Shown here: positions 15,845 to 61,106 of the stretch, piece by piece
How positions within the stretch are numbered: the stretch's first letter is position 1
Layout of the letters: each line of letters opens with the position of its first letter
Source of the DNA: Ornithinibacillus caprae
GTDB lineage: Bacteria > Bacillota > Bacilli > Bacillales > Amphibacillaceae
Direction: 5' to 3'
NCBI RefSeq assembly: GCF_009728145.1
Contig: NZ_WOCA01000004.1
Span: 124,001 to 188,000, forward strand
Length of the DNA stretch: 64,000 nt
Notes under the pieces: generated by a model
Databases searched by the model: none
Told to the model about the DNA's origin: nothing
The model's input: the letters and a program-made list of their open reading frames with translations, nothing else
Program-made: the position numbers and the translations under genes

Positions 15845-16324
15845 ATGAATTTAACGATTATTGCAGTTGGAAAATTAAAAGAAAAATATTTAAAACAAGG
15901 TATTCAAGAATATTTAAAACGACTAAGCGCATATGCAAAAGTAACTATTATCGAGGTTGCAGATGAAAAAGCCCCAGAAAATATGAGCGAGGCAGAAATG
16001 CTGGAAGTCAAGGAGAAGGAAGGAGAACGAATCCTTTCTAACATTGGACAAGATACCTATGTGATCACATTGGAAATAAACGGTAAGATGCTAAGCTCGG
16101 AGCAGCTTGCGAAAAAGATGGACGAGCTAGCTACATACGGAAAGAGCAAGGTTGCGTTTGTAATTGGTGGATCCCTTGGTATAAGTGAAGCAGTACAGAA
16201 GCGGAGTGATTTGGCATTGTCGTTTTCGAAAATGACATTTCCTCATCAGGTCATGCGGTTAATTTTGTTGGAGCAGGTTTATCGGGGGTTTAGGATAAAT
16301 CGGGGGGAACCGTACCATAAATAG
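15845..16324 (+). CDS. rlmH: 23S rRNA (pseudouridine1915-N3)-methyltransferase RlmH
   Basis: The 159-residue protein is full length for RlmH, the SPOUT-class enzyme that methylates pseudouridine 1915 of 23S rRNA. It shows the start [15 protein letters not shown], the knot region [10 protein letters not shown] and the C-terminal RGEPYHK. The ATG follows a GGACGG ribosome site. The last codons form the attachment site used by SCC-type elements, and integration has kept the coding sequence intact. The gene is overlapped on the other strand by the end of the large serine recombinase gene. Confidence 0.97.
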
Positions 16325-17980
16325 AGGCAAAAATTGTTGTAGATATGGTGGTAATTTATCATTAGAAACTGTTGTTTGAGGAAGGATTATCCCTTCTTCA
16401 TCCGTTTCTAAATATAATAAGTGAATTAACGCAAAAGTTTTTGAGATGTTAACCTCTGAGAAATCAAAATCGAGTTCTATTTTATCCACTACTCGTGTTT
16501 TATCTTTAGTTAGAGTAATGTTAATGTTTTCTATTAAAAGTTGTAGTAATTGTTTTTGTTTATTTCTAGATGATCGTTTATATGTTTCAATAAATTTTGT
16601 TAAAAGTATATCAAGAAGCTCAGGCTGTATAACCTTAGTATCGGTTGAACTGAGTTTAGTACTGAGTTCGCTTTTCCTTTGCTCTAGCATTGACTTTTCA
16701 TCTGAGACATCCTTTAGTCGTTCTTGTAAAATATCCACAGGAAAGAGGTTTTGTTCATATGCTTCAAAATATTTATCCTGAAGTTCTTTCAATTCCATAA
16801 TTCTTTTATCAATATTCTCTAATTCTAATTGAATTTCCTTCGTTGAATTAACGGAGTCTTTATTAAGTGAATTGACTTTTAAGGCGAAATCCTCTTTATT
16901 ATTAATCACTTCCTGAATCTTTTCTATAGTGGTATTTTCCGCAAAATAAGCTTTAATTGAATTAGCCCGACAAGCGGAAGAACCTTTGTTATGAAAATCA
17001 CTACAAACATAATATCGATGCTTCCTTTTTGTACCGTCTTTACGGGTGTAGGTTGTAATTGATGGAACCATACCTTGTCCACAATCTGGACATCTTAGTA
17101 CGCTGCTTAACAAAAATGGTTCATTTGATTGTCTTTGTTTAAAGGATTTACTTTTTCTTCTAGTTTGAACAATGTTCCATAATTCATCATTGATAATCGG
17201 TTCGTGTTTCCCTTCTACCAGTATAGGGTTTGGATTTTTCCCTTTTCTACGCTTTGTATCCCAATTTTCTACTTTAAGCCAACTAATCTTTCCATTATAT
17301 ACTGGATTGTCTAAAATGGTTGCTATGCCGTTAATTGAGAAGTAACGATCTTTCTTTGTTCGATATCCTTGTTTGTTTACATAGTTGGCAATTGCCTTTA
17401 GTCCTTTTCCTTTTGCATACTGATCAAAGATAAGTTGAATAACCTTTGCTTCCTGTTGATTAATAATAAGTTCCTTTTCAATAGAATCGTAGCCAAATAC
17501 AATTCCACCGTTCCATTCACCTTGTAGTGCGCGTTGTTTCATACCTAGTTTTACGTTTTCTGAGAGTGTGTTTCTTTCCATTTCAGCTATTGAAGCCATA
17601 AGCTGTAGAACTAGTCTTCCAATAGGGCTACCAGTATCAAAGTTTTCCGAGTAGGAAATGAATTTCACATTGTATTTTTCAAATTTATCTAGAAGTACAA
17701 GTGTATCAAGCATGTTACGTGAAAGACGAGAAATTTTCCACACTAATACAGCTTGAAATTCCTCATTTTCAATGTCGGAAACAAGTCGTTGCATTGCGGG
17801 GCGGCCTTTAATCGATTTACCACTGATTCCTTCATCAATATATTCGTGACCTACTTTCCAACCATATAATTTTGCATATTGACGCAGTAAATCAAGTTGA
17901 GCATCAATACTATAGCCCTCACTCGCCTGTTCTTCGGTACTTACACGACAGTAGATAGCAACCTTTTTTATTTCTGTCAT
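16259..17980 (-). CDS. Large serine recombinase (SCC integrase/excisionase type), overlapping rlmH
   Basis: The 573-residue recombinase has a resolvase-type catalytic domain with nucleophile Ser14 in YCRVSTEEQ and arginines in KISRLSRN, a recombinase domain (about 165-260), a zinc ribbon (CPDCGQG ... [12 protein letters not shown], about 295-340) and a coiled coil (about 360-430). It probably catalyses integration at rlmH. The ATG has AAGGGGG seven bases upstream. Its last 20 or so residues are read from the antisense strand of rlmH, because the open frame crosses the attachment site. In the excised circle the same frame would end at a different stop in the element's other end. Confidence 0.92.
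16304..16324 (+). other. SCC-type attachment site (attL) in the 3' end of rlmH
   Basis: The last 21 bases of rlmH include GAACCGTACCATAAATAG, equivalent to the SCC attachment site of staphylococci, which also lies in the last codons of rlmH. Three similar direct copies occur downstream at 49088-49108, 53808-53828 and 61086-61106, marking this as the left junction of the island. Confidence 0.85.
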
Positions 17981-18465
17981 TTTTGTCCCCCTTTCATCCT
18001 TATATTACTATGAAAATTAAAGGAGGACAAAAGTGACTTTTCTATAGTTTAAGTTATGGTGTTAGCATAGAAAATGTAATTAACTACAATGAAGACCAAC
18101 TTAATTGAGTAAGTAGTTCCGTTTCTGTGGAGAAACATATGAAATAACATACTAATTAGAATACTCAATCGCATAGTGCTTGGTCTCTTATTTTTTCCAT
18201 ATATTAACGATTGCAGGATATTAGCACTTGAATCATACAAAAACGAAACCGGAATATCATAGTGACATTAGCCGTTGTCAAAGCGATTTTCACTCTGTAT
18301 AAATGATATGATATTTTCTATGTTAACTCTTATAAAACCAAGCAGGTAATTGTAATTTCATGTTAAAATATTGGTATAAGATTTAGAATTTTTTGGTCTT
18401 CAACAAACGAAGCAGGTTAATGGAACAAGAAGTGAGTTTTGAAATAACTTTCGGTATTATGAATT

Positions 18466-19014
18466 TTGAGGGGAGATTGCTTTAATGGAGAGGTTAAACA
18501 CGATACTAATATATTATCAATTCTCCAAGTAGTTGAGAATTTAAACTTAAACGATGCTTGGGTATGTGCAGGACTTATTCGAAATAAAGTTTGGGATATT
18601 TTACATAATACAACTACACCTATAAATGATATTGATGTTATATATTATGATACTTCGGAAACCTCTTTGGAAAAAGAAAAGCGATTAGAAACAAAATTAG
18701 GGGGTTTACTTCCAAATCAACCTTGGTCAGTGAAAAATCAAGCCCGTATGCATTTAAAAAGTGGGTTTGATTCTTTTAATTCATCATATGATGGTGTTGC
18801 TCATTTTCCAGAAACTCCAACTGCAATAGCTGTAAAATTGTGTAATGAAAAGCTTGAAATAATGGCTCCTTATGGATTAAAGGATTTGTTTGAATTGAAG
18901 GTGAAGCCCACACCATTTTATCAAAAGAATAGTGAATTTTATTCAATATATCTTGAACGTATTAAAAGGAAAAAATGGGATGATATATGGAGTAGTTTAT
19001 CTATAGAACTTTAG
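18466..19014 (+). CDS. Nucleotidyltransferase family protein (NTP_transf_6-like)
   Basis: The protein of about 180 residues shows the pattern of small nucleotidyltransferase-fold proteins of the DUF925/NTP_transf_6 family: WVCAGLIRNKVWDIL, then NDIDVIYYD with the paired aspartates and a C-terminal lysine-rich tail. The substrate is unknown. The start is unclear. GAGGGGAG lies before an ATG at 18485 that is out of frame by one base, so either a small frameshift or an alternative TTG start at 18466 applies. It is probably element cargo. Confidence 0.7.
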   Translation: MRGDCFNGEVKHDTNILSILQVVENLNLNDAWVCAGLIRNKVWDILHNTTTPINDIDVIYYDTSETSLEKEKRLETKLGGLLPNQPWSVKNQARMHLKSGFDSFNSSYDGVAHFPETPTAIAVKLCNEKLEIMAPYGLKDLFELKVKPTPFYQKNSEFYSIYLERIKRKKWDDIWSSLSIEL

Positions 19015-19082
19015 AGTTGAAATATCCAAGTGCTATTTCAACTAAAGGGGGCTTATTTGGAATAAGGTAAGGTGATGTGTTC

Positions 19083-19400
19083 ATGAATGAACCTAATATG
19101 AAAGAAGTCATTGCAAAGCTAGAAAAGGTGCTTTCAGGTGAATTAAATAGAGAAGAAGTATCAGAATGGGCTGAATTTTATGTTATGGCTGATAAACCAA
19201 ACGTTGATGATGAAAATGTTTGGGAAATGTTGCAGACTATTAGTGGAATAGATATTTTAGACTCACCCACAACCTATCTTTATAACCAAGAAGACATAAA
19301 GCAATGGATAGAAAAAGCGAAAGGGTGCGTTAGCACAAGAGGAATAGTGATGAAATATTTATCTTATTATATTAGGAATTTCCCATATCGGGCCAGATAA
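19083..19400 (+). CDS. Hypothetical protein
   Basis: The 105-residue, acidic, helical protein is not recognised by name. A segment reading YLYNQEDIKQWIEK after a conserved-looking SGIDILDSPT suggests a compact domain found in cytoplasmic Bacillus proteins. AAGGTGA lies about 7 bases before the ATG at 19083. It sits between the nucleotidyltransferase gene and a small zinc-ribbon gene, all in the same direction. Confidence 0.55.
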   Translation: MNEPNMKEVIAKLEKVLSGELNREEVSEWAEFYVMADKPNVDDENVWEMLQTISGIDILDSPTTYLYNQEDIKQWIEKAKGCVSTRGIVMKYLSYYIRNFPYRAR

Positions 19401-20420: not shown

Positions 20421-21902
20421 CTACGCCGAATGGCTGATATCCTCATAATCAAAGAGGTAAATAACATCCTTAATTTCACGCTCTTTTGGTCTAGCCCCTT
20501 GAGAGACATGAACTTCTTTAATAATAAAATGAAATAAAAACTTCTTTTCCTCATCGGAAATAATATTTATAAAATCTTTCAAATGATTCGTAACATATTC
20601 AACATTGCTTTTAACATTAAAGTTGTTTTGTAGATTAATTTGCTTATTCAATCTATCTAATTTAGTTAATGTCTCTTCTTCTTCATCTTCTAGTTCACCA
20701 ATAAGGTAAGAAAAAGTTTTATCCTTAATTTGCTTTGAATCCTCGGCTTCTTCAAGATATAGATATGCTATTTTTTTTATTTTTTTCTGTATAGATTTTA
20801 ATGAATTATTTAATGAATTAACTTCATCATTTAAGGATTTAAGATTATTTCCTAGGTTTGAATTTATTATTGTAGACAATATAGCAGATACATTTAGCTT
20901 ATTAAGATGGGGAATTAAAATATCCAGTACAGCTTCTTCTGCGTATTCCTTAATTATAAGGTTTGAAGAACAAGCCTTACTACCACTACTTTTATTTTTA
21001 TTACACTGGTAGTATTTATACTTTTCGCTGCTGTTTCCTTGTACCATTGGTGATCCACATTGGGGACACTTTAGTAATCCTGAAAGTGGAAAAGTTCCCG
21101 GATGTATTTTAGTCGGTGTATATGATTTTTTTGCTTTAAGATTCTGTGCTTTATTCCAAAGATCTTCAGAAATAATAGGTTCATGTTGTCCTTTCGTATA
21201 TTCACCTTTCCACTTTGTAAATCCAATATAAATTTTATTTTCTAATATAGTCTTAACAGCATTAATTGTCCAATCGTTATTTTTTTTCGTTTTAAATCCT
21301 TGAAGATTTAAATTGTTAGCTATTTTTTTGTAGCCCCACTGATTATAGACGTACTTATTGTAAATATACTGTATAACTGCAGCTTCCTCTGGTATAATTC
21401 TGAGGCGTTTACTAACGGATTCATAACCAAATACTATTCCACCTTGAAAATAACCAGCAGTAGCCTTTTTCACCATGCCGGAAACTGTATTTGTTGAGAT
21501 ATTTTCCCTTTCTTTTTCAGCCTGAAGAGCATTTAGTAAATATAACATTTTCGCATTTGGATCTTTTGTGTTTATATTGTCGGTAATACATATAATAACT
21601 TTTTTTGCCTCTTTTACCCTTTCTAAAAAAAAGATGGCATCTGAAAAATTCCTGAAGAGACGGTCTAATTTATAAGCGATAATAAACTTAATTTCTTCAT
21701 CTTCCATTAGGTGTTTATACATTTTTTTGAATTGTTCTCTACCCTCAATATTTTTTGCCGAAGCCTCTTCTTTATAAATGGAGACAGTTTTAATATCGTT
21801 TGCTTTACAATATTCTTGCGCACTTTCAACCTGCTTTGAAATAGAGGTATTATCAGCTTGTTTATCTGTACTCACCCTTGCATATACAAGTGCTTTTGTC
21901 AT
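20421..21902 (-). CDS. Second large serine recombinase
   Basis: The 493-residue recombinase has nucleophile Ser in VYARVSTDKQ (residue 10), catalytic arginines in YKLDRLFRN, a recombinase domain (about 150-235), a zinc ribbon (CPQCGSP ... CNKNKSSGSKAC) and a coiled coil (about 345-420). It resembles the SCC Ccr and phage integrase group but differs strongly from the recombinase next to rlmH. Its start overlaps the stop of a small upstream gene (ATGA), so the two are translated together. It may act with the first recombinase or belong to an older element nested in segment A. Confidence 0.9.
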   Translation of the reverse strand: MTKALVYARVSTDKQADNTSISKQVESAQEYCKANDIKTVSIYKEEASAKNIEGREQFKKMYKHLMEDEEIKFIIAYKLDRLFRNFSDAIFFLERVKEAKKVIICITDNINTKDPNAKMLYLLNALQAEKERENISTNTVSGMVKKATAGYFQGGIVFGYESVSKRLRIIPEEAAVIQYIYNKYVYNQWGYKKIANNLNLQGFKTKKNNDWTINAVKTILENKIYIGFTKWKGEYTKGQHEPIISEDLWNKAQNLKAKKSYTPTKIHPGTFPLSGLLKCPQCGSPMVQGNSSEKYKYYQCNKNKSSGSKACSSNLIIKEYAEEAVLDILIPHLNKLNVSAILSTIINSNLGNNLKSLNDEVNSLNNSLKSIQKKIKKIAYLYLEEAEDSKQIKDKTFSYLIGELEDEEEETLTKLDRLNKQINLQNNFNVKSNVEYVTNHLKDFINIISDEEKKFLFHFIIKEVHVSQGARPKEREIKDVIYLFDYEDISHSA

Positions 21903-22624: not shown

Positions 22625-23530
22625 CTAGCTATCCATTTCATGATAAATATCACTTATCAGTTTGGAGAGGGGCCTTTTATGTAAGTCACTTTCATTTAAA
22701 TAACTTCCAAAGATGGTTCTTTTCATTTCATCTTCATCATTAAAGAGTCCTTCAAAATCTCTGTGAATTTCATTTAGTTTGGATTCCGTATAAAGTAGCT
22801 TTTTTTTAAAAAGTTCCTGAACGACATCATTATGAATTTCGTATTGTGAATCTAACTTGAAAATATTGATGTTGCTCTTAATTCGTTTATGCAGAGGTGT
22901 CGTTACGACTTCCAAGTAGCTTGAATCATGGATAAAGTCTATTGATTTAAGTTTAAAATTAAAACGAAGTAAATCACTAGAATTAAACCGTCTATCATAA
23001 GGAGAATAGTATATTGTTTTATTACTCTTGATATGATTGCAACTTGAACATGAAGGAATAAGGTTGTAAAATGACATCGCTAAGAATGGGTATTTCTCTT
23101 TAGGATAATAGTGATCCATTTGACTAGTCCGTTTAAGACCGCGATTTGCATAAGTTACATTATTTATAAAGTTTCTATTGCAGTAAGGGCATACTACTAT
23201 TTTAAGTTTTTGTACTAATTTAGCAGCGTTATATTCTGTATCAATTAAATATTTGGAAGACTTCGCAAAGTATGAACTATATAGATTATCCCTAATATAT
23301 TTAATTTCATCAGAGACAATACTACCGTAATAGGCATTTTTTATACGTGGTAATTCCGACATATCTGCAAGGATAACGTCTTCAAATGCTAAACGAGAAC
23401 CATTTCCCCTGAACCAGTTGTTAATATCATCGTAATTATATTTTGTCAGCGGATTGTTTAAGTGACTTAAAATTGCTTCTAGATGTTCTTGGGCATAGGT
23501 AGTCAATTTATTGTTTTTTATAGGGATCAT
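22625..23530 (-). CDS. ptuB: HNH endonuclease of a Septu-like defence pair (PtuB-like)
   Basis: The 301-residue protein has an HNH nuclease centre with zinc pairs CPYC (114-117) and CSSC (161-164), the catalytic segment SQMDHYYPK around residues 137-143 and NHIKSNK after the second pair. This is the arrangement of PtuB and related retron-associated nucleases. The start lies 23 bases inside the upstream ATPase gene, with GGAG about 10 bases before it, so the two genes are coupled. In Septu systems the ATPase holds and licenses this nuclease against phage. Confidence 0.8.
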   Translation of the reverse strand: MIPIKNNKLTTYAQEHLEAILSHLNNPLTKYNYDDINNWFRGNGSRLAFEDVILADMSELPRIKNAYYGSIVSDEIKYIRDNLYSSYFAKSSKYLIDTEYNAAKLVQKLKIVVCPYCNRNFINNVTYANRGLKRTSQMDHYYPKEKYPFLAMSFYNLIPSCSSCNHIKSNKTIYYSPYDRRFNSSDLLRFNFKLKSIDFIHDSSYLEVVTTPLHKRIKSNINIFKLDSQYEIHNDVVQELFKKKLLYTESKLNEIHRDFEGLFNDEDEMKRTIFGSYLNESDLHKRPLSKLISDIYHEMDS

Positions 23531-25394
23531 CTTTTTCTAACTCCATTATTCTGGCCTTTAACTTTCTAATTGTATCATCTTTATGTACTACTTTTTCTGT
23601 CATTAGCTCTAATCTGCTTTTTATAAGTGGTTCACCAATAATACTTATAACATAATCAATTTCCTCCTTATTTTTCGTTGAAAGATCCTTAGAAGCGTTT
23701 AGTAAATTTATAATTTTATTAATTTTATTCCGAGCAAATTCTCCTGTAGTACTTGTCATAAAAAAATCATTAGCAAGTAAGCTATGAATATTCGCTGCAA
23801 AAGGATCTGTAGTAATTGGTACTTGTTTGCATTTGCCTGTTGCAACATCCTTTTCAAGTGCAATGACATTATCCTTAGAAAGATCAGATATTATAAAAGG
23901 AGAGTGTGTGGTAACAATTATTTGATATGAACTGTAACCATTTTCTAACCTATTTAAATAGGAACATAGCTCGTTTATTAATAACCGACTCCATTCAGGA
24001 TGCATAAAGTTGTCAGGTTCATCTAATAGTATAATTGCTTTATCTTTTGTTCCGTTGTAATTTAAACTTAAAGAATAGTGAAGAGCAGAAAAAAGTGATA
24101 AAAGAGCTTCCTCACCAGCACTAAATGGATAAAATTCTAATGAAAATATTTTAGTCAGTGTTTGTAACTCTTCATCAACAAAATTTAAATCGTCAAATAA
24201 AAAGAGAAAATTAGTAATTGCTCGGTATGACTTAGTGTCTTCACTTAATGGGATTGTTATATTTTCTCTATTAAACCAATCTTTACTGAATCCTGAAATC
24301 TCGTTGATAAATCTCTCTAATTTTTCGATTATTTGCTCTTTATATTGAAAATACTTGTCTTTTTCTTCTTGATAGTTTAAAAGTGTAGAGATAATTTCAA
24401 TGTAATAAGAATAAAAGTTATCTCCTTTCACATTAATGTCCTTAATATTAGTTATAAATTCTGATAGTTCGGATTCCATTTTAGGCAATAAGAAAAACTG
24501 TGAGGCCAAGCAGTGACAAAAATCATATAAAATTTTATTAATAAAATCTTGTTTTTCATTAAATTTAGTTTGGTTTTTATGACTACCAAGATTCAATAAA
24601 TCAATTTTTTTTTCAAAACCCTTTTCAATTTCCAAATTTATTTCGTCATTGATGTACATATTGGGTGTGATCTTGAGATACATTTCATTTTTAAAAGTGA
24701 ACATAAAGTTGTTATCATTATTAGAACTTGTTTTATTATTAAGATCATTAATCATCTGGAAAATAGCTGAGTAACCAGTATTTTGTGGACTTATATTAAT
24801 TCTGTTAAATAAATGCGAAGGTTCATTTTCAATTTTCATACTTTGATGATGACGGTATGTCTTTTTTGAATATCGATATCGAAAGCTAAAATAGTTTATA
24901 TCTTCCTTGTAATCCCTTCCCTGAGATGATTGTAAAAAACCCCTATAAAAAAATTTATCGCCTATTTTTTCAATGACAATACTATATGGTTCAGAGATGT
25001 GACTTCGGCTATTATTAGTAGAATAGTTTTCAATGCTGTTTTTAATATAATCAAAGTTACTCCCTTCAAGAGCGAAAAGGTTATCCTCTAAGTGATAGAT
25101 TAGAAAGTATTTTTGTGTTTCATAGTTACCAAAACTAGAACGATCATAGCGTTTTGCACCAAGAAGATCTAATATATTTGTTTTGCCACTCCCGTTTTTA
25201 CCAATAATACCTGTTATATTATTTACTTTTTTTTCATATAGTTTTAAATGAAAACTATTCTTATTAATTATTAAGTTTGGGTGACTAGATTCATCATTTT
25301 GTCTTTTAAAATCAACATTGAATTTTGATGATAAGTTAAAACCCATATTTTCTATATTACGGAAATTATCGACCCATAAATATATAAGTTCCAT
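23508..25394 (-). CDS. ptuA: ATPase of a Septu-like defence pair (PtuA-like)
   Basis: The 628-residue SMC/ABC-class ATPase has Walker A GKNGSGKT at residues 65-72, Walker B AIILLDEPD with Asp458-Glu459, and the switch histidine in VTTHSPFII. The order and the overlapping HNH partner fit PtuA of Septu, a phage defence pair also seen in type I retrons. No reverse transcriptase or retron RNA is visible nearby, so this looks like stand-alone Septu. A coiled-coil or insertion region of about 350 residues separates the Walker motifs. Confidence 0.8.
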   Translation of the reverse strand: MELIYLWVDNFRNIENMGFNLSSKFNVDFKRQNDESSHPNLIINKNSFHLKLYEKKVNNITGIIGKNGSGKTNILDLLGAKRYDRSSFGNYETQKYFLIYHLEDNLFALEGSNFDYIKNSIENYSTNNSRSHISEPYSIVIEKIGDKFFYRGFLQSSQGRDYKEDINYFSFRYRYSKKTYRHHQSMKIENEPSHLFNRINISPQNTGYSAIFQMINDLNNKTSSNNDNNFMFTFKNEMYLKITPNMYINDEINLEIEKGFEKKIDLLNLGSHKNQTKFNEKQDFINKILYDFCHCLASQFFLLPKMESELSEFITNIKDINVKGDNFYSYYIEIISTLLNYQEEKDKYFQYKEQIIEKLERFINEISGFSKDWFNRENITIPLSEDTKSYRAITNFLFLFDDLNFVDEELQTLTKIFSLEFYPFSAGEEALLSLFSALHYSLSLNYNGTKDKAIILLDEPDNFMHPEWSRLLINELCSYLNRLENGYSSYQIIVTTHSPFIISDLSKDNVIALEKDVATGKCKQVPITTDPFAANIHSLLANDFFMTSTTGEFARNKINKIINLLNASKDLSTKNKEEIDYVISIIGEPLIKSRLELMTEKVVHKDDTIRKLKARIMELEKDDPYKKQ

Positions 25395-50599: not shown

Positions 50600-51655
50600 A
50601 TGTGTACAACATTTACATTTCAGAAAGAGAAAGCATTTGTATTAGGACAGAATTATGATTTTTATTATGGTCACGGACTTATTGTTGTAAGTCCGAGGGG
50701 ATTGAAGAAATATTCAATAACGAGAGGAGGTTCCCCAAGAATCACGTGGATCTCGAATTATGGTAGTGTGACATTCACTCAATTTGGCAGAGAGCTTCCG
50801 ATGAGTGGCATGAATGAAAAAGGATTGACGATTGCCATGATGCATCAGGAAGATGGCAGGCTTCCTTCAGAGGATGACCGTCCTGGATTGAACGAACTAC
50901 AGTGGATTCAATATCAGTTGGATCAATACCAGTCAGTTGAAGAAGTGGTGGAGCATTTGGAAGAGTTCAGGTTGGAAAAATCAGTATATGAGCTACATTA
51001 CACGATAGCTGATGCAACAGGGAAAACGGTGCTAATCGACTTTATTGATGGTGCATGCCATGTGACAGGTGATGCTGAATACTATACGATGACCAATACT
51101 AGTTATGAAAAATCAGTTGCGTATGCGAACCAGTTTGAGGATTTTCCAATTGAGAATTTATCAAATAAAGCGACCTCTCTCGATCGTTTTACTTTAGTAT
51201 ATCGGTTAGTAAAAGATATTCATGCTCAATCTGCTATTGGTAGTCCGATTCAAAAAGCATTTGAACTACTAGATAAAGTAGCAGTGAAACCCACGGCGCA
51301 AACACAATGGGATTGGGTTGGAAACGGGGTTCCACCAACCTTTACGTACTGGAGTATCGTTTTCAATATCACTAATCAAACCATTTTCTATAGGGATTTG
51401 CAAAATCATGAAATTCGATCCATTCATCTCAAAGACTTTTCGTTTCATAGTAGTGGTGAAGTACTGGCATTGGCTTTAGATAATAAAGATTCTGGTAGGA
51501 TTTCAAATCAGTTTCAACCATATCAGACAGAAGATAATGAGCGGATTATCTTAAAAAGCTATGAGCCAATTAGTGATCTTTTTCCTCCTAATGAACAGAG
51601 GGAGCTGATAACCTATCCCGATTCATTCAAGAGAGTTTTTGTTGAGGAAAATTAA
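50600..51655 (+). CDS. Linear amide C-N hydrolase (choloylglycine/penicillin acylase family)
   Basis: The 351-residue protein starts MCTTFTF, and the cysteine after the initiator would be the N-terminal nucleophile of the Ntn-hydrolase fold. NYDFYYGH and MSGMNEKGLTIAMM are family motifs. Members cleave linear amide bonds such as those in penicillin V, bile salts or acyl-homoserine lactones; the substrate here is unknown. GGAGGG precedes the ATG. It lies directly after the AraC-type regulator in the same direction. Confidence 0.87.
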   Translation: MCTTFTFQKEKAFVLGQNYDFYYGHGLIVVSPRGLKKYSITRGGSPRITWISNYGSVTFTQFGRELPMSGMNEKGLTIAMMHQEDGRLPSEDDRPGLNELQWIQYQLDQYQSVEEVVEHLEEFRLEKSVYELHYTIADATGKTVLIDFIDGACHVTGDAEYYTMTNTSYEKSVAYANQFEDFPIENLSNKATSLDRFTLVYRLVKDIHAQSAIGSPIQKAFELLDKVAVKPTAQTQWDWVGNGVPPTFTYWSIVFNITNQTIFYRDLQNHEIRSIHLKDFSFHSSGEVLALALDNKDSGRISNQFQPYQTEDNERIILKSYEPISDLFPPNEQRELITYPDSFKRVFVEEN

Positions 51656-51899: not shown

Positions 51900-52565
51900 T
51901 CATTTCCATTCCAAGATACCATTTAAATCCTGATAAATAGAACGTGGTTTCAGATTTAATTCCTCGATTGGTGAATTTTCCCGGTTTATCCAAGCTGTTT
52001 TAAATCCAAAACTTCTCGCACCTGAAATATCCCACCCATTTGATGACATGAATAGCACCTCTTCACGTTCTACACCTAGAACATTTAATGCATAGGTATA
52101 GGAGGCGGGTGTTGGTTTAAATTGTTTGATATCATCAACACTAATGATTTCATCAAAAAATGGTTCTAAGCCGGAATTTTGAATTAGGGGCTCTAACATA
52201 TCTCGTGATCCGTTTGATATTACAGCGAGTTTTTTGTGTTTCATTTGCTTTAGAACAGATTTCACTTCTTGATAAGGAGATAGATTTTTATATGCTTCTA
52301 ATAAAAGCTGGAGATTATCGTTATCATAATCATGATTAAGTTTTTTAAGAGTATATCTTAATGAGTCCAGTGTAATATTAATAAATGGTTCATATTGCCC
52401 CATCATCTGACGTAAAAAAGAATACTCAAGTTGTTTTTGATGCCACAGGATACTGATTTCCTTCCCTTTATCCTTAAAAAGTTCATTACACTTTTCCTCT
52501 ACGGAATGAACATCAACTAAAGTTCCATAAACGTCAAATAGCAGTGCTTTAATTGTAGAATTCAT
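51900..52565 (-). CDS. Haloacid dehalogenase type II family hydrolase
   Basis: The 221-residue protein belongs to the HAD superfamily, L-2-haloacid dehalogenase subfamily. The nucleophile aspartate is in LLFDVYGTLVD, the Ser/Thr in VISNGSRDM, and the later motif in MSSNGWDISGA matches the dehalogenase type rather than phosphatases. The ATG at 52565 is chosen because AAGGAG lies eight bases upstream; a longer frame begins at 52586. It is transcribed alone. Confidence 0.9.
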   Translation of the reverse strand: MNSTIKALLFDVYGTLVDVHSVEEKCNELFKDKGKEISILWHQKQLEYSFLRQMMGQYEPFINITLDSLRYTLKKLNHDYDNDNLQLLLEAYKNLSPYQEVKSVLKQMKHKKLAVISNGSRDMLEPLIQNSGLEPFFDEIISVDDIKQFKPTPASYTYALNVLGVEREEVLFMSSNGWDISGARSFGFKTAWINRENSPIEELNLKPRSIYQDLNGILEWK

Positions 52566-52910
52566 ATTTCCTATTCTCCTTCTCATTAAAGATCGATTAG
52601 TTATGAAGTATTTTTAATTCTCTGTCAACTATTATTCTATCTTATTATGATAATAATGCAATACTTGATTGGGATTTATATGTAAAAAAATATTTGTGTG
52701 CTGCTGATTCAAAAGCGTTTAAGGATAACATCGCATGAGCAGCCATCAAATCTATAGAGTTACTGTATAGGGTTGTTTCTTCACGCACGATGCTGTTAGC
52801 ATTCACTAGATGTGACACAGCTATGGCGGGATAGTCGTATAAATCAAACGCAGCCAACCGGCTAATAATGAAAATTCAGGATGCAAAGGTTTGAAAAAAA
52901 TGTAAAAGGC

Positions 52911-53138
52911 CTATGATACTAAAAGATCCTCGATCATAACAACTAGCCATCCTAGAATCTCTAGTTCAAACCAGGCGCCTGATTCTTGGATGTTTTTGAG
53001 TGTCTGCATTGCGTCTCCATTTACGAGTAATGTTCTGTGTGCATAACCATAAGTGAAGGCTGCTGCAATGGCCATGATGAACAAGTAAACTCCTGCTTTG
53101 TATCGTTTGAATCCAATGCCTTTACAGGAGATTGACAA
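52911..53138 (-). pseudogene. Fragment of a DUF4386-like membrane protein
   Basis: The 75-residue frame (FKRYKAGVYLFIMAIAAAFTYGY) looks like the N-terminal helices of DUF4386 membrane proteins, which are normally about 220 residues. It is cut after the second helix. The rest of 52566-53130 contains another doubtful fragment (52645-52857) and nothing else that I can support. Confidence 0.4.
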
Positions 53139-53214
53139 TTGGTTCGAGCCGTATAGACAATTTTGGTCGAATAAGCTGGATGATTTGGAGAGACATCCTG
53201 ACCAAGAGGAGTAA
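53124..53214 (+). pseudogene. C-terminal fragment of an ArsR-type regulator
   Basis: About 30 codons read IDNWFEPYRQFWSNKLDDLE, the typical C-terminus of ArsR regulators. They end in a TAA that overlaps the ATG of the SRPBCC frame (TAATG). ArsR and SRPBCC genes are a common pair; here the regulator has lost its DNA-binding part, so a deletion joins this fragment to the DUF4386-like remnant. Confidence 0.55.
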
Positions 53215-53243
53215 TGCCGAAAAGCACTATGAGGAGGAAAAGC

Positions 53244-53725
53244 ATGTTAGCCGTTCTGCAACAAACCAAGGATGGATATGTGGCTCGTTTTGAGCGTCAT
53301 CTAAAGCATTCAGTTGAGAAAGTGTGGTCATCACTTACAGAAAATGACAAGTTGAAGAAATGGTTTTCCGATTTGCAAGTAGATGACCTCCGCGAAGGCG
53401 GACTATTAAGTTTGACATGCAAAACGGTACATTCGAGGAACTGAAAATAATCGAACTCAAATTGTATTCGGTATTGGAATATACTTGGGGAGATGATCAA
53501 GTTCGATTTGAACTGTATCCTGAATCTGATGGGTGTCGATTGGTCCTGATTGTAAAGATCAACAAAATTACCAGTCACACACCAAAAGATCTTGCGGGCT
53601 GGCATGTATGTTTGAATTTAATCCAAGCGTTGTTAGATGAACAATCGTTTGGCTCACGTAAAAACGAATGGGAAAAATGGTACAAAGAGTACGCTCAAAG
53701 TATTGACAAATTGAATAAAAGTTAG
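53244..53725 (+). pseudogene. SRPBCC-domain (AHSA1-like) protein, frameshifted
   Basis: Two frames together give an SRPBCC protein of about 160 residues. The first (ARFERHLKHSVEKVWSSLTE ...) breaks near 53409 and the second (MQNGTFEELKIIELK ... WEKWYKEYAQ) continues to 53725. GAGGAGG precedes the ATG at 53244. With the truncated ArsR fragment before it, this is a decayed ArsR-SRPBCC pair. Confidence 0.7.
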
Positions 53726-53807: not shown

Positions 53808-53828
53808 CCAGAGCCGTATCATAAATAG
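53808..53828 (+). repeat. SCC-type attachment repeat, copy 3
   Basis: This copy contains GAGCCGTATCATAAATAG, two mismatches from the 18-base rlmH core, in the same orientation. The three bases before it no longer match. Confidence 0.7.
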
Positions 53829-54512: not shown

Positions 54513-57229
54513 TTGAACATAGAAATGCATTTAATCCTAGTAAAAAACGAGGATAAAACAGAACAAATTGACTCCTATAAAATTAACAATGGTATATGGA
54601 AAATTAAGTACCATAATACAAACAAAGAATATCCATATAAAAAAGAAGACGTCCGATTTCTTAGTGAACCCAAATCTATTGACCCTAAAATAAATATAGT
54701 ATATGCGAATGACCAACCAATTTCAGGCATTAATAAAATACTGGATTTTGGTTCACATATTAGAATTATATTTAACAGTGGATTTAAAAAGATATATAAA
54801 AGTTCGGAAATTGCTATAGAAAAAACCTCTTTAAGTAATGCAAGAGAAGGAAACACCTTTGAATATTTAAAAACACTAGCAAACGCTGTTAGCATAAAAC
54901 TTGATGGAGATGTGTCCTTTTTAAGAAAACAGTATAATAACCTCACTCAGATCAGTCCACGAAGTGTTTTATCAGCCTATTTAGGAAAGAAAAATCTAAT
55001 AACCCATACCAAACAGCAACAGATTATTTTTCCATTTGGATTTAATGCTAGTCAAAAGGCAGCTACCGAAAAGACGATGACAAGTCAACTTAGTATGATT
55101 GAAGGGCCACCAGGTACAGGTAAGACTCAAACCATTCTCAATATCATAGCAAATGCAGTAATCAATAATAAGACGGTTGCCATTGTATCCAATAACAACT
55201 CTGCAACAGAAAATGTAATGGAGAAACTACGTAAATATGGAATTGATTTTATTGCTGCTTATTTAGGGAATAAGGATAACCAGAAAAAGTTCTTCTCTGA
55301 ACAGAATAGGACTTATCCTAATATGAGTGATTGGGTTATGGAGGAGGAAGAAATTCAATCCATTAAAACATATCTTCATGAAGAGCAGCTTAAGTTAAAC
55401 GATGTGCTGGAGAGCCAAAATAGACGAGCCATTCTAAAAAGGAACTATCTGCGCTTCAAACCGAGTATAGTTACTTTGAAGATTACTATTCTGAATCAGG
55501 TTATCCGGAGTTTGATATAAAAACACTGTTTCCATTAAATGCAGATAAACTATTACAGATGATAGTAAAGTATAAACAACAAATTAAACTAGGGAAAATT
55601 AAATTTAGTAACAAATTACAGAATCTATTTGTTTATGGAATATATAATTTTAAAATCTATAATTCTTTACCCGAATTAGTCATTACACACTTACAAAAGA
55701 AGTATTATGACTTAAAGTCAAAAGAATTAAAGGACGAAATCGCTTTTTTAGATAACAAGCTAGAAAATTATAATTTTGAAAGTGCGATGAAGGAATATAG
55801 AGACCAATCTATGCGATTGTTTAAGGCAAGTTTGGGTAAGCGTTTTGGACGGGGTGGTTCTAGAACCACATTTAATACTAATTCACTTTGGAAGGATTTT
55901 GATCGTTTTATCAAAGAATATCCTGTTATCCTAAGTACAACGCATTCATTGCGTAATTGCGCTGCTAATAATTATTTATTTGATTATGTATTAGTTGATG
56001 AGGCCTCCCAGGTAGATATTGTAACGGGAGCTTTAGCTCTATCATGTGCAAAAAATGCAGTGATTGTTGGCGATGAAAAACAGCTTCCAAATGTAGTACC
56101 AGACGAAGTTAGGGGGAAAACTACAAAAGTTTTTAACGCGTTTCAACTTGATGAGGCATAAAATTATTCAAACCATAGTTTACTATCCTCAATTGAAACG
56201 TTATTTAGTGAGTTGCCTAAGACATTGTTAAAAGAGCATTATCGTTGTCACCCTAAGATTATAAACTATTGCAATCAAAAATTTTATAATAATGAGCTAG
56301 TCATTTTAACTGATGCTGAGGACCGTGAATACCCCTTAACTTTAATCAAAACAGTAAAGGGAAATCATGCAAGAGGTACCATGAACCAAAGGCAAATTGA
56401 TGTAATTACGAAAGAAATAATCCCAGAGCTTGGTGAAAATGAATCCATTGGGATAATAGCGCCATTTCGGTTACAAGCGGATAAAATACAAAAGGTTACA
56501 AGTGATAGCAGTATTGAAGCGGATACCGTGCATAAGTTCCAAGGCAGGGAAAAAGATATTATCATTTTATCCACCGTTTCTAATCAAATAAACGCTAATG
56601 ATTTTGCGGATAACTCAAATCTGATAAATGTAGCGGTTTCGCGAGCGGTCAAAAAATTAATTGTAGTAGTTGCTGAGGGTAGTGAAGAATGGCATGGAAC
56701 TAATATTAGCGATTTAATAAGGTATATTAAATACAATAATTACGAGATAAAAGATAGCCAAATCCATTCCGTATTCGATCTTCTTTATAGTAGCTATTCA
56801 GATCAATTAATGAAGGTTATGAAAAATAGTAAAAAAGTTTCCGAGCATATATCGGAAGTATTAATAAATAATGTGATTGAAAAAGTATTGAGAGAAAAGC
56901 CGTTTCAGACACTTGACTATGTTCTACATCAACCGTTAAGAATGCTAGTGAAAAATACAGAAATACTGACGGAAGAGGAACGGAAATATGCTATGAATAT
57001 CTTAACGCATACGGACTTTGTTATCTTTAATAAAATGAATAAGATGCCAGTATTAGTAGTTGAAGTAGATGGACATGCGTTCCATGCAAATAATCCAAAA
57101 CAACTTAAGAGAGATGAGATGAAAGATAATATATTACGAAAGTATCATATTCCTATTGTGAGATTGAAGACGACTGGGAGTGGGGAAGAAGAGGTCATTC
57201 GTAATAAACTATTGGGCATTTTGAAATAA
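54513..57229 (+). pseudogene. SF1 helicase with C-terminal nuclease-like domain, broken
   Basis: The three frames at 54513-55520, 55559-56161 and 56213-57229 together give one protein of about 900 residues. It has an UPF1/DNA2-like SF1 helicase with Walker A GPPGTGKT (residue 198), VLVDEASQVD as motif II and later motifs (DTVHKFQGREKD, NVAVSRAVKK), then a PD-(D/E)XK/DUF2726-like domain (THTDFVIFNKMNKMPVLVVE). A frameshift lies near 55437 and an in-frame TAA at 56159-56161. The start is TTG at 54513 behind AGGTGGG. It was probably a defence helicase-nuclease and now looks inactive. Confidence 0.75.
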
Positions 57230-57339: not shown

Positions 57340-57377
57340 GGCATGACAACAAGGGTAAAACTTGTCATGCCTTTTTG
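57340..57377 (+). terminator. Intrinsic terminator after the broken helicase gene
   Basis: The perfect 10-bp stem GGCATGACAA / TTGTCATGCC is followed by five T. The Mrr-type gene starts about 40 bases later. Confidence 0.85.
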
Positions 57378-57415
57378 TTATTTTGTTTATTATTAATATG
57401 TTTGGAGGAGTTTCG

Positions 57416-59095
57416 ATGGGAAGACAAATGTATGAGATAGAGATCAGGCATGATGGGTTAAATAAATATAGGTTAATAAAAGGATCTGACCCTTATGTTG
57501 TAAGGCAAAAAGCAAGATACCAGGAATTGCAATGGGATGAAATGTGGAAGAAAAAACTAGAAACCCAATTAAAAAAAGAAGAAAGAGAGGCTACCACTAG
57601 AGAGAAGGAGGCTAAAAAGGCATTAGCATTACAGTTAACGAGTGAAGCGGAAGAGAAGATTGGAGAACTAGAAGGTATTTTAAGGCTTACCCTTGAAGTA
57701 GATGATGCAATAGACTGGGAGAATTTAAAGGATTATACGGAATTTGGTGAGCCTAAACCAATTGAAATAGAACTTATACCTCTACCAGATAAACCGGAAG
57801 AGGAGAGCGTAAAATATATCCCTAAATTAAATATTATAGATATTCTTTTTAAGGCTAGTAAAAATAAAAAAATATTAAATATGAAAAAGTTATATGAAGA
57901 GGACTTGAAAAAATGGGAAATTGAGGTTGAAGAGATTAACCGTGAAAACCAGGATATTACAGTTCAAAATGCAGCAAACTTAAAGGCTTGGTTAGAAAAA
58001 GAAGCAGAATTTAAAAGAGAACAAGAAGAGAAAAATAAGGCGATTGACAATCAGATACATAATTATGAAAAAGGTTTACCATCAGCAATTGTAGACTATT
58101 GTGATATGGTCTTATCTAATTCAAGATATCCAGATTATTTTCCTCAGGAATATGATGTTGATTATAATCCGAACAATAAAGTATTAATTGTTGATTATTC
58201 ATTGCCTGCTCCGGATAATTTACCAACTGTAAAAGATGTAAAATATATTCAATCAAGGGATGAATTTAAAGAGTCATATTTATCAGCAGCTGCTATTAAT
58301 AAGATATATGATCGTATGCTTTATCAAATAACACTACGTTCTATACACGAGTTGTTTGAAGCGGATGTGGCAAATTACATTAATTCAATTGTGTTTAATG
58401 GATGGGTTGAATCTATTGATAAGGCATTAGGTAATAAAGTGAACTCATGTATTTTATCTATACAAGTATCGAAAGAAGAGTTTATGAAAGTCAATTTATC
58501 ACAGGTTGATCCTAAGCTTTGCTTTAAGAACTTTAAGGGAATTGGAAGCAGCAAATTGAATAGTCTTATGCCGATAGCGCCAATTATTACAATAAACCGT
58601 GATGATCCACGCTTTGTTTCATCGTATGATGTGACAGACTCATTAGATGAGACTAACAATATTGCAGCCATGGATTGGCAAGAATTTGAGCACTTAATAA
58701 GAGAAATCTTTGAAAAGGAGTTCAATCAATCTGGTGGTGAAGTAAAGATTACTAGAGCTAGTAGAGACGGAGGAGTAGATGCGGTTGCATTCGATCCTGA
58801 TCCTATCAGAGGCGGGAAAATTGTGATTCAAGCAAAACGATATACTAACGTAGTGGGGGTTTCAGCTGTCAGAGACTTATATGGAACCGTAATGAATGAA
58901 GGTGCAACTAAGGGAATATTAGTTTCTACTGCAGATTATGGACCTGATGCATACAGTTTTGCTAAAGATAAGCCACTTACTTTGATTAATGGTAATAATT
59001 TATTGCACCTATTACAGAAGCATGGTCATAGGGCGAAGATAGATTTGAAGGAAGCGAAGAAAGTAATTAAAGAAAGAGAAAATAACATTGGGTAA
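57416..59095 (+). CDS. Mrr-type restriction endonuclease with long coiled-coil N-terminus
   Basis: The 559-residue protein has an N-terminal charged coiled-coil part (about 20-210), a middle domain of unknown type and a C-terminal Mrr-like nuclease (about 425-540). The catalytic residues are readable: Asp455 in GGVDAVAFDPD and the Q-x-K of IQAKRY at 472-474, followed by VRDLYGTVM. Mrr-like nucleases cut modified or foreign DNA. The ATG at 57416 has GGAGGAG at 57404-57410; the frame upstream adds a hydrophobic stretch that overlaps the terminator. Confidence 0.85.
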   Translation: MGRQMYEIEIRHDGLNKYRLIKGSDPYVVRQKARYQELQWDEMWKKKLETQLKKEEREATTREKEAKKALALQLTSEAEEKIGELEGILRLTLEVDDAIDWENLKDYTEFGEPKPIEIELIPLPDKPEEESVKYIPKLNIIDILFKASKNKKILNMKKLYEEDLKKWEIEVEEINRENQDITVQNAANLKAWLEKEAEFKREQEEKNKAIDNQIHNYEKGLPSAIVDYCDMVLSNSRYPDYFPQEYDVDYNPNNKVLIVDYSLPAPDNLPTVKDVKYIQSRDEFKESYLSAAAINKIYDRMLYQITLRSIHELFEADVANYINSIVFNGWVESIDKALGNKVNSCILSIQVSKEEFMKVNLSQVDPKLCFKNFKGIGSSKLNSLMPIAPIITINRDDPRFVSSYDVTDSLDETNNIAAMDWQEFEHLIREIFEKEFNQSGGEVKITRASRDGGVDAVAFDPDPIRGGKIVIQAKRYTNVVGVSAVRDLYGTVMNEGATKGILVSTADYGPDAYSFAKDKPLTLINGNNLLHLLQKHGHRAKIDLKEAKKVIKERENNIG

Positions 59096-59117
59096 TAAAT
59101 GAAAAGGGGGATTCTAT

Positions 59118-59552
59118 GTGTTGCAAAATAGAATCGATGAATTAGATAGTGCGATTTTAGATATAAAGGGAGAATTAGTATTTGTGACAGGATTCATGCG
59201 TGAGGAAATGGTGGAATTACATCTTATTAAAGGGAAAGATTGTTGGAGTTCAAAAGGCTTATATGACTATCAAGAGTTGGAATATCATAATATAAAAAAT
59301 AATGCACTAATAATAGTAAGAGAAAATGGAAAAGAGATTAATAGATATCAGTATAAACCGGTCTATAAAGATACCATTCAATATAAAAATAAAAATGGTA
59401 AAAATCTTTCTATCACTTTTACGATAAGAAAAAGTTCATTTAGTGAACATTACCATCTTCTATCTGATAGAACTTCAATAATTTTTGATAGAAAAGATGA
59501 ACTGGATAACTACCTATTAGATGAATATGGGATTCGCTGTACTTATAATTAG
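59118..59552 (+). CDS. Hypothetical protein between the nuclease genes
   Basis: The 144-residue protein appears mainly beta-stranded with many aromatic residues, and I do not recognise it. The start is GTG at 59118 behind AAGGGGG. It lies 22 bases after the Mrr-type gene and 28 before the exonuclease gene in the same direction, so the three form one operon and may function together. Confidence 0.6.
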   Translation: MLQNRIDELDSAILDIKGELVFVTGFMREEMVELHLIKGKDCWSSKGLYDYQELEYHNIKNNALIIVRENGKEINRYQYKPVYKDTIQYKNKNGKNLSITFTIRKSSFSEHYHLLSDRTSIIFDRKDELDNYLLDEYGIRCTYN

Positions 59553-59580
59553 GAGTTAAGGATTAAGAGGGGGGAAATGA

Positions 59581-60693
59581 TTGATAATGGATAATATGAT
59601 TTTATTGGACATTGAGACTGGTGATTTTGATGTGGACTCCGGAATATATGAATTAGCAGTATTGGTAATTAAGGATGGTAGAATAATTCAAAGTGAACAT
59701 ATTGCGGAAGTATATGATGAAAGGATTCGTCATCTAGGAATGGGGGAAGGGTACAAGAATATATCTGAAAACCAAGTAATGCAGGAGCGTTTCCAACATA
59801 TAATCAATACATATCAATTCCCCATAGTAGCTCATAATGTTTCTTTTGATAGAAAATTTCTCGTTCATTATGGTTGGTTGGAAGAGAATTACGAATGTTA
59901 CGATTCCGTGCGAGCTATCAAGTATGCTAATCCTAATTTGTTTTCTTATTCATTAGAATATCTACTAAATTATTATGATATTGATCTTCCTTTAACTCAT
60001 ATTGCAATAGATGATGTTTACGCGCTTTTTGAGGTGATTAAAAAGGTTGATCCTAAAAAGTGGATACCTTTATACAAAGTTCCTCCCAAAAAATTTAATA
60101 AATTTGTTGAAGCCACCGCTAATGTAGAAGGAGAAAGTTTAGTTTTTCAAGGAAGAAGATTAGTGTTTACGGGTGCAAGTCCCTTTCCTAGAATCCTAAT
60201 GAAAGAAATAGCAGCAAAGTGTGGTGCAATCGTAACGGGAAACGTATCGTCTAAAACAGATTTATTGATTTGTGGAGAAAAGCCAGGTAGTAAGTTAGAA
60301 AAAGCTAGGGAGTTAGATATTGAAATACAGACAGATGAATGGTTTATAGATGCTGTATCAAAGGATTTAAATTTAGAGACGGCTACTTTAACTCGGCAAA
60401 GTGTTGCTGCAACCAAGGAAACTAGATATGAAAAAATAACTTATACTAAGATTCCTGAATTAAGAGGGAAATTTGTTAATATAGCATTGCTACCATTTAG
60501 GATACAAAAGAAAGTGGAAGATATTCTTATTAATCATATGGAGGTAGCTGGTATAAATAGAGGAACTAATGGTTATAAGGTGGATTTTATTATTCATTCA
60601 GACGATAGAGAGTATGTTCTTTTAGGAAAGGCTAAGGAAATGCAAATAATTGCTATTCCATTGTCCAAGTTTAATAGAATGATTTTGAGTTAG
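59581..60693 (+). CDS. DnaQ-type 3'-5' exonuclease with BRCT domain
   Basis: The 370-residue protein has a DEDDh exonuclease domain (about 5-165): ILLDIETGDF with the first Asp-Glu pair, VAHNVSFDRKF, and HIAIDDVYALF near the end. A BRCT domain follows (about 195-275; RRLVFTGASPFPR ... KCGAIVTGNVSSKTDLLICG). The last 95 residues are not recognised. The combination recalls the exonuclease-BRCT proteins related to DNA polymerase III epsilon. AGAGGGGGG precedes TTG 59581 and ATG 59587; either may start translation. It ends the Mrr operon. Confidence 0.82.
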   Translation: MIMDNMILLDIETGDFDVDSGIYELAVLVIKDGRIIQSEHIAEVYDERIRHLGMGEGYKNISENQVMQERFQHIINTYQFPIVAHNVSFDRKFLVHYGWLEENYECYDSVRAIKYANPNLFSYSLEYLLNYYDIDLPLTHIAIDDVYALFEVIKKVDPKKWIPLYKVPPKKFNKFVEATANVEGESLVFQGRRLVFTGASPFPRILMKEIAAKCGAIVTGNVSSKTDLLICGEKPGSKLEKARELDIEIQTDEWFIDAVSKDLNLETATLTRQSVAATKETRYEKITYTKIPELRGKFVNIALLPFRIQKKVEDILINHMEVAGINRGTNGYKVDFIIHSDDREYVLLGKAKEMQIIAIPLSKFNRMILS

Positions 60694-60721
60694 TAATGAA
60701 TGAGGAAGTTACTTTTCCATT

Positions 60722-61051
60722 ATGTCATCGAAACGATGGAACAATTTAACATTAGGAGTTATACTAATTGTCGAAGATCAAGACATTTGCATGGGGGAAA
60801 ATAGGTGCTCGTATTGTATCTCTATCTCAGGTACCATTAATTCACCGATGGGAAGACAAGAAGCTTCTCAGCAAAATACCAAGAGTCAGACCCTTGGCAA
60901 TAAGATTCTTTTCTATAAGAACAGAAAGTTAAACTTACTAGTTCTTGGGAGTAATACAGAAATAAGTGATAATGACAATTTTTCTAGTGTTTATAAGTTC
61001 AAAAATAATGATCTTTCAGTAATTAATAATAAAGGCATTGGTCACAGTTAA
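60722..61051 (+). CDS. Doubtful 109-residue frame at the end of segment C
   Basis: The frame MSSKRWNNLTLGV... runs 109 residues to the terminator at the right end of segment C. There is no convincing ribosome site and no family I recognise. It occupies the place that the HEPN gene has in segment A, directly before the terminator, so it could be a decayed gene. Confidence 0.25.
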   Translation: MSSKRWNNLTLGVILIVEDQDICMGENRCSYCISISGTINSPMGRQEASQQNTKSQTLGNKILFYKNRKLNLLVLGSNTEISDNDNFSSVYKFKNNDLSVINNKGIGHS

Positions 61052-61068
61052 CCAATGTCTCATTTTTT
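61034..61068 (+). terminator. Terminator at the right end of segment C
   Basis: GGCATTGGT pairs with ACCAATGTC (one G-U) and is followed by a T-run. It matches the terminator at 49033-49070 in sequence and distance to the attachment site. Confidence 0.75.
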
Positions 61069-61085
61069 GCCTCTTAAATAACCAC

Positions 61086-61106
61086 GATGAACCGCATCAC
61101 AACTAG
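61086..61106 (+). repeat. SCC-type attachment repeat, copy 4 (likely right end of the island)
   Basis: This copy contains GAACCGCATCACAACTAG, four mismatches from the 18-base rlmH core. It is preceded by CTCTTAAATAACCACGAT, which matches the flank of copy 2 at most positions, and followed by a TAC-GTTTTTT stretch also similar to that after copy 2. Chromosome-like genes follow. Confidence 0.65.

Follow-up and report, generated by a model that had tools for sequence, protein, structure and literature searches.

Typed attachment sites behind rlmH in Ornithinibacillus caprae point to a composite island resembling the staphylococcal cassette chromosome

The window analysed here is a stretch of 64,000 nucleotides from Ornithinibacillus caprae (NCBI RefSeq assembly GCF_009728145.1, contig NZ_WOCA01000004.1, positions 124,001 to 188,000 of the forward strand). 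Its subject is the gene rlmH and the DNA behind the rlmH 3′ end, where direct repeats of the last codons, inverted-repeat arms and large serine recombinase genes recall the staphylococcal cassette chromosome (SCC), known mainly as a carrier of methicillin resistance. Very probably, repeated insertion at the rlmH 3′ end has built up a composite island of SCC-like kind in the window. The features on which this reading rests are as follows.

15845..16324, + strand: rlmH, the integration target, whose last codons (EPYHK-stop) are the site (PF02590, 201.6 bits, the sole match in its own genome)
16307..16324, + strand: attachment (att) site 1, the rlmH end and left terminus of segment 1
16323..16333, + strand: left inverted-repeat arm, type A (AGAGGCAAAAA)
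16259..17980, − strand: large serine recombinase A, 573 aa, CcrB/CcrC-like, its 3′ end running antisense through the rlmH end (PF00239, PF07508, PF13408)
20421..21902, − strand: second large serine recombinase, 493 aa
49066..49076, + strand: right inverted-repeat arm, type A (TTTTTGCCCCT)
49091..49108, + strand: att site 2, a right end A followed by a left end C
53811..53828, + strand: att site 3, a right end B followed by a left end B
61064..61074, + strand: right inverted-repeat arm, type A (TTTTTGCCTCT)
61089..61106, + strand: att site 4, a right end A followed by a C-like left end

Attachment sites, element ends and recombinases

Direct copies of the 21 bases at the rlmH end (16304-16324) lie on the + strand at 16304, 49088, 53808 and 61086 and match at 21, 18, 16 and 15 of 21 positions. 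A preliminary description of this DNA had placed four direct repeats at these positions and had counted 16, 16 and 14 of 18 core bases in copies 2, 3 and 4; both statements agree with the sequences. Against the degenerate core GRRCCKTAYCAYAARTRG, the four copies score 18, 18, 18 and 16 of 18, and a score of at least 16 arose in 0 of 10 first-order Markov simulations of 48 kb, although this pattern was designed after the copies were known and is biased in their favour. With the plain 21-mer, each simulated 48 kb yielded on average about 0.5 matches scoring 15 and 0.3 scoring 16, and no higher score occurred; judged by the 21-mer alone, copies 3 and 4 therefore lack significance. An armless match of 15/21 is also present at 30774. 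Copy 3 is backed by its 18/18 degenerate core and by B-type arms. Copy 4 is backed by a perfect A-type right arm and by the recurrence of the last bases of segment 3, which have matches in some two dozen further genomes, in several cases at listed rlmH-type sites. Weak sites within segments 2 and 3 were rejected as further boundaries, the best (at 53039) scoring 15/18 and being armless.

A fifth, decayed copy lies outside the window, at window coordinate 64054 and thus 54 bases past its end. It scores 17/18 for GARCCNTAYCAYAARTRR, with AA replacing GA; its profile E-value is just 0.012, with the copy itself included in the profile. If it is counted, the island does not end at 61106 and comprises at least four segments. 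The earlier view that four copies fix the borders of three tandem segments thus holds in part: the copies are real and the ends of segment 1 match, but the terminus would move beyond 61106, the segment number would rise, and segments 2 and 3 pair their ends no better than shuffled ones.

Aligned on GA, each site consists of two parts, first the right end of a unit and then the left end of its neighbour. Left ends include the coding sequence for the last rlmH residues; the rest of their sequence sorts them into types that have inverted counterparts among the right ends and for which we coined the names A to E in this analysis (left/right: A, AGAGGCAAAAA / TTTTTGCCTCT; B, TGGTAAA / TTTACCA; C, ATGAGGTTTTT / AAAACCTCAT; D, GGGTAAAATA / TTTTACCC; E, TGGCAAAC / GTTTGCCA). 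In the window, the ends follow one another as A..A, C..B, B..A and C..C-like. Type-A right ends recur at sites across several genera and families, and the 40 bases left of copies 2-4 are unlike rlmH and like the element ends of other genomes. Judged by eye, the distance between type-B right arms and GA is 11-13 bases in small cassettes and 16 bases in genome G131 (handles of this kind denote genomes); because this distance varies, the recombinase serving type-B ends is left unnamed.

The two ends of a unit tend to belong together. Neighbouring sites in 28 stretches delimit 56 units; pairing each left arm with the right arm of the same unit gave a longest match of 6.09 bases on average, and 200 shuffled pairings gave a mean of 4.86 (sd 0.22, highest 5.54), all below the observed value; the units include weak sites (16/18) and recurring related elements and are non-independent, which makes the comparison a guide and not a probability. 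Within the window, the run is 8 for segments 1 and 4 and 4 for segments 2 and 3.

Segment 1 (16307-49090) is flanked by direct repeats at 16307 and 49091, is inserted at the rlmH 3′ end, has terminal inverted repeats around a central GA and encodes a homologous recombinase pair, which the NCBIfam CcrB model scores at 394.6 and 186.3 bits (cut-off 900). The best models for recombinase A are CcrB, at 394.6 bits, and CcrC, at 337.1. At the predicted junction of a segment 1 circle, the 8-base arms TTTTTGCC and GGCAAAAA would stand equidistant from GA; a central GA is reported as a requirement of CcrAB (PMC10581047). The frame of recombinase A terminates on the opposite strand within rlmH (16259-16306), giving 573 aa when integrated and 562 aa in the predicted circle. 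The C-terminus would therefore differ between the two forms.

The same arrangement is found in relatives. The 11 genomes of the genus that were searched (this one included) all contain rlmH, and in each the gene ends in the site pattern (15 to 21 of 21), as expected of sequence coding for the last rlmH residues. A typed element end (match of at least 0.9) stands directly behind rlmH in nine of the 11: type A in G000, G005, G007 and G008, D in G003 and G004, E in G006, B in G002 and C in G009. In G001 and G010, the best type match behind rlmH is 0.64, and further sites lie downstream in both. A homologue of recombinase A occupies the same place in G008 (91%) and in G005 and G007 (both 68%), and a 40-42% relative is present in G003 and G004. 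Between the island and a block at 110-121 kb (window coordinates), which is common to G006, G008 and partly G010, the region is thus variable.

A scan of genome contigs for the recombinase A family returned at least 79 loci, and rlmH lies within the fetched stretch in 59 of the 79 kept. Among the 60 of these that were examined, an 18/18 site with an AGAGGCA arm is present in 27/27 stretches at 57% identity or more and no site in four less similar ones; the left arm also codes for the recombinase tail and, unlike the right arms, is tied to protein conservation. The second recombinase has a homologue in 15 of the 27 type-A stretches, located at most about 110 bases from the first recombinase in 11 of the 15, and five of the 12 stretches without it end at contig ends. 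Matches of about 80-110 aa labelled large serine recombinase ('LSR') at rlmH ends are antisense rlmH and were disregarded.

The pattern GARSCNTAYCAYAARTRR is found in 140/146 genomes of the family (263 matches versus 9 for a reversed control) and in 289/299 genomes of the order. Two or more copies on one strand occur in 70 of the 146 family genomes and three or more in 22, the control having none with two; one copy per genome is expected, since the pattern codes for the rlmH end, and extra copies were counted irrespective of their position behind rlmH. In stretches L083 (16280) and L079 (reverse strand; oriented position 14283), a site that is not the first is, by eye, preceded by rlmH-like sequence, which may reflect additional rlmH copies or an array laid out differently.

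From the sites, arms and recombinases observed in the window and the like arrangement in relatives, we infer a crossover point, an activity and an order of events. A Ccr-like pair of large serine recombinases would join an element circle to the rlmH 3′ end, with a 2-bp crossover at GA. The left end would itself supply a copy of the final rlmH codons (ACCGTAYCATAAATAG) and so keep rlmH intact, and the right end would leave a new site for the next insertion, repetition of which would yield a tandem array. Segment 1 would then be a complete autonomous element and segments 2-4 recombinase-free cassettes, or remnants, that arrived via like sites, with some junctions lost later.

Segment contents and competing explanations

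Besides the recombinases, segment 1 carries the following genes.

22625..25394, − strand: Septu-like ATPase and HNH pair, PADLOC candidate PDC-M62A/B (PDC-M62A 219 bits, PDC-M62B 205 bits)
29582..30568, − strand: putative MobC-type relaxase (Replic_Relax; PF13814, 42.4 bits, cut-off 25.3)
31148..32849, + strand: replication-like pair of an HTH-type protein (weak match only) and a DnaC/DnaI-like ATPase (PF01695; PRK08116, 131.6 bits, cut-off 189)
33538..33804, + strand: resolvase fragment, 88 aa (PF00239)
34970..43217, + strand: N6-methylase with an S-like domain, then type I restriction genes hsdM, hsdS and hsdR
43372..47016, + strand: large NTPase with an nSTAND3 domain, candidate defence gene (PF20720, 36.5 bits)
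47095..49050, + strand: candidate defence protein PDC-S56 (807 bits)

By its ends and gene content, segment 1 looks like a complete element that is probably still mobile. It appears to combine integrase and putative relaxase domains—the pairing by which an integrative mobilizable element is recognised—and may possibly be mobilisable by conjugation; PF13814 corresponds to the Rel_PF13814/MobC relaxase superfamily (PMC5357655). Its G+C content is 30.9%, versus 36.3% in the left flank. The restriction genes hsdM and hsdR are 95% and 94% identical to copies in the type-A element of G005 and hsdS just 35%, meaning that the specificity subunit differs within otherwise near-identical modules. A terminator-like hairpin followed by T's, seen by eye at 49038-49070, overlaps the right end of the segment, and an Rfam scan of 16-64 kb gave no match at the gathering threshold.

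The remaining segments encode the following.

49572..51655, + strand: segment 2, AraC-type regulator and C45/choloylglycine-hydrolase-like acylase
51900..53725, both strands: segment 2, HAD hydrolase (−) and AHSA1/SRPBCC gene split in two open reading frames (ORFs) (+)
54513..57229, + strand: segment 3, helicase gene broken into three ORFs
57362..60693, + strand: segment 3, Mrr-type nuclease, a further ORF and an exonuclease-BRCT protein
61312..63981, + strand: segment 4, VanR-like regulator, VanS-like kinase and cell-wall amidase, the unit extending to the decayed att site at 64054

Segments 2-4 are bounded by att sites and lack ccr genes, as is characteristic of pseudo-SCC elements, with mismatched arms in segments 2 and 3; when four recombinases served as tblastn queries, the interval from 49091 to 64054 showed no recombinase. 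No counterpart of segments 2-4 as site-bounded units was found elsewhere, and segments 2 and 3 match other genomes in pieces only, the helicase region as one 2.7-kb DNA match of 67-76% in G100, G021, G079 and G049. Given the absent recombinase and mismatched ends, junctions have probably been lost in segments 2 and 3. We rejected segment 4 as a clean cassette because G008 carries the same genes without adjoining sites.

Some smaller features deserve mention. At 61312-63139, the VanR-like protein scores 390 bits (above the NCBIfam cut-off of 350) and the VanS-like protein 394 (cut-off 400), beside the cell-wall amidase; no ligase gene was noticed in segment 4. Many genomes of the family contain copies of the stretch 49218-49457, chiefly of its last 130 bases, at about 68-89%; these often lie in two places per genome and in some genomes at contig ends, and the stretch has no Rfam match at the gathering threshold. 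At 54063-54305, there is an 80-aa minus-strand ORF, with DNA matches of 75-86% in several genomes and, in G131, a location less than 30 kb from rlmH.

Several observations weigh against a composite island. The preliminary description had expected related genomes in which rlmH is followed directly by DNA like that from 61107 onward, and this expectation failed: the 10 same-genus relatives, each covered for 38-120 kb beyond rlmH, showed no such empty site, and the counterpart of 61309-63974 in G008 (81%) lies 44 kb downstream of rlmH with no att site beside it. A circle was not observed, the exact circle-junction pattern having 0 matches in viral_contigs; the recombinases score far under the NCBIfam Ccr cut-offs; and the run of 4 in segments 2 and 3 is below the shuffled mean. 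The left end at 16307 pairs over 11 bases with the right arm at 61064 versus 8 with its own arm at 49066, and a further pairing (10 bases, T-rich) links the left end at 49091 to the right end of the decayed site at 64054; these cross-pairings make alternative unit boundaries possible. Together with the near-chance 21-mer scores of copies 3 and 4, the 11-base pairing would suit one element that integrated once, from 16.3 to 61.1 or 64.1 kb, with the inner copies being chance matches or internal repeats. This we consider improbable, since the inner copies at 49091 and 53811 score 18/18 and have arms of types found elsewhere, a type-A right arm stands at 49066, and relatives have same-type units of many sizes.

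An integrative conjugative element or prophage in place of an SCC-like island could account for the putative relaxase and for related serine integrases in phages (31-34% identity among the best matches listed). We hold it to be very improbable: no conjugation-pore or virion family appeared among the 29 ORFs given to Pfam, which did not include every short ORF, and the best family models for the recombinases are CcrB and CcrC. A phage or plasmid origin was likewise set aside, all matches listed, among at least 5000 records in one search and 1169 in another, being below 60% identity. Repeated partial duplication of the rlmH 3′ end with no mobile element involved would explain why every copy resembles that end, and is scarcely credible given that the DNA left of copies 2-4 resembles foreign element ends and that typed ends recur. 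The tandem integration at the rlmH 3′ end proposed in the preliminary description is thus supported by the sites, arms, recombinases and relatives.

Small recombinase-free cassettes in relatives

Between strong sites (at least 17/18, with GA), 42 units were tallied, 20 of which are smaller than 4 kb (908-3855 bp); the loci were partly picked for close site spacing among the matches listed, so this share is not a population estimate. One of the 20 contains a recombinase remnant and the other 19 have no recombinase match of at least 100 aa, and 9 of the 22 larger units have a recombinase. According to Pfam, the cassettes contain a TauE (sulfite) exporter, DJ-1/PfpI with HxlR, a glyoxalase (with an AraC neighbour assigned by eye), RhuM, a short-chain dehydrogenase or an EamA exporter. 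In G139, a unit encodes a protein of the HUMPS family, a SIS protein and, by eye, a regulator resembling HxlR; this hxl-like operon lies inside type-A ends next to a 91-bp match to the recombinase gene. In G108, a 3.9-kb unit is filled by a single gene of 1232 aa, 29% identical over 934 positions to the nSTAND protein of the window, and in G005 a type-C left end is followed by a nitric oxide synthase gene and by no strong right end.

For three kinds of cassette, copies with 87-95% identity exist in other genera or families; in two of the three, both ends coincide with att sites. The TauE unit of G010 matches G085 (another genus) at 91.7%, from −5 to +43 around the sites, and G007 at 85.7%; between G007 and G224 (another family), the match is 95.3% and includes the end of a neighbouring RhuM unit. 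The glyoxalase/AraC unit, third or fourth in the array of G010 and directly at rlmH in G412 (another family), is 90.8% identical between the two, from −3 to +21 around the sites, and in G285 (another family) it matches at 91.7% over 1187 bases, the right end not being reached. The DJ-1/HxlR unit is 92.8% identical between G005 and G094 (another genus), continuing left into RhuM. RhuM units themselves are more diverged (74-88% in most pairs).

G001 carries the glyoxalase/AraC and dehydrogenase genes together, more than 36 kb from the nearest site found, and there the glyoxalase unit lacks 85 and 66 bases at its outer edges; the locus is either a source of the cassette or an array with a lost junction. 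By analogy, erosion of this kind may be what befell segments 2 and 3.

These observations suggest a joint claim to which we give an even chance. The rlmH 3′ end of Bacillales would anchor an integron-like cassette system run by Ccr-type serine recombinases; its cassettes would be single genes or operons for stress, detoxification, efflux, regulation or defence, with typed ends that include the rlmH tail; resident autonomous elements would mobilise them in trans, and they would be reordered within tandem arrays and exchanged across genera and families; and segments 2-4 of the window would be eroded array members. The cassette boundaries in relatives are observed directly; transfer and mobilisation in trans are inferred.

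The small units might instead have moved by homologous recombination or within larger elements and not one by one through site-specific recombination, a doubtful reading that nevertheless keeps some weight. It fits their lack of a recombinase and the joint movement of some neighbours, the RhuM end having travelled with both TauE and DJ-1/HxlR. Homologous exchange does act at the locus, since the 4.5 kb right of the array are 99.4% identical between G005 and G007 versus 69% for the 2.6 kb around rlmH and the recombinase. This exchange and the co-movement also speak against strictly unit-by-unit transfer. In favour of site-specific cassette movement, the matches of the glyoxalase/AraC unit (G010 versus G412) and the TauE unit (G010 versus G085 and G007) start at most 5 bp left of one site and end 16-43 bp right of the next, the core measuring 18 bp, and their left neighbours differ.

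Comparison with known systems

The island shares with staphylococcal SCC the rlmH 3′ target, Ccr-like recombinases, tandem units, terminal inverted repeats and 18-bp direct repeats of the same kind (PMC7029136). It differs in its Oceanobacillus-like host, in recombinases below the NCBIfam CcrA/B/C cut-offs, in a first recombinase that lies at the left terminus antisense to rlmH, and in having no mec among the ORFs searched. SCC-like rlmH islands with Pol-SSB in the Bacillus group likewise have the rlmH target, large serine recombinases and conflict genes, and some are composite, with more than one end repeat (PMC10061031); segment 1 has a DnaC/DnaI-like ATPase and Replic_Relax instead, and its Pfam results include no Pol-SSB pair or Cch-type helicase. 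The Enterococcus cassette chromosome also uses rlmH, with a ccrAB-like pair, att sites of about 50 bp with inverted repeats and multiple attR in 16/32, and arrays of single-operon units are not described in the parts of that report consulted (PMC6222049). Pseudo-SCC, too, is a direct-repeat-bounded unit without ccr; the published example measures 8,884 bp and comes from one species (PMC4723332), whereas the units found here span 0.9-3.9 kb and some are shared across genera and families.

The preliminary description had called a multi-segment island less familiar in a Bacillaceae-like genome. This is not supported, since rlmH SCC-like islands of this group, some composite, are in print (PMC10061031, PMC10581047), as are such islands beyond staphylococci more widely, composites included (PMC6222049), and staphylococcal composites and pseudo-SCC (PMC7029136, PMC4723332). 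The island itself is therefore known in kind, and it is the small recombinase-free cassettes shared between genera and families that go further. Open-access titles and abstract openings gave no description of arrays of such cassettes at rlmH in Bacillales, which is weak evidence of absence.

Should arrays of tiny, transferable cassettes without recombinases prove widespread at rlmH in Bacillales, SCC would represent one branch of a general platform for gene capture, and typed ends may predict which recombinase moves which cassette. For testing the cassette reading, the window supplies an apparently complete autonomous element and the relatives supply cassettes with exact ends.

Integron cassettes are tandem, recombinase-free, single-operon units at one anchor. 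The 29 ORFs from segments 1-3 that were run against Pfam include no IntI tyrosine integrase, and the rlmH arrays differ from integrons in apparently using serine recombinases and in their rlmH-derived sites; in their working, as tandem recombinase-free single-operon cassettes at one anchor, they are alike.

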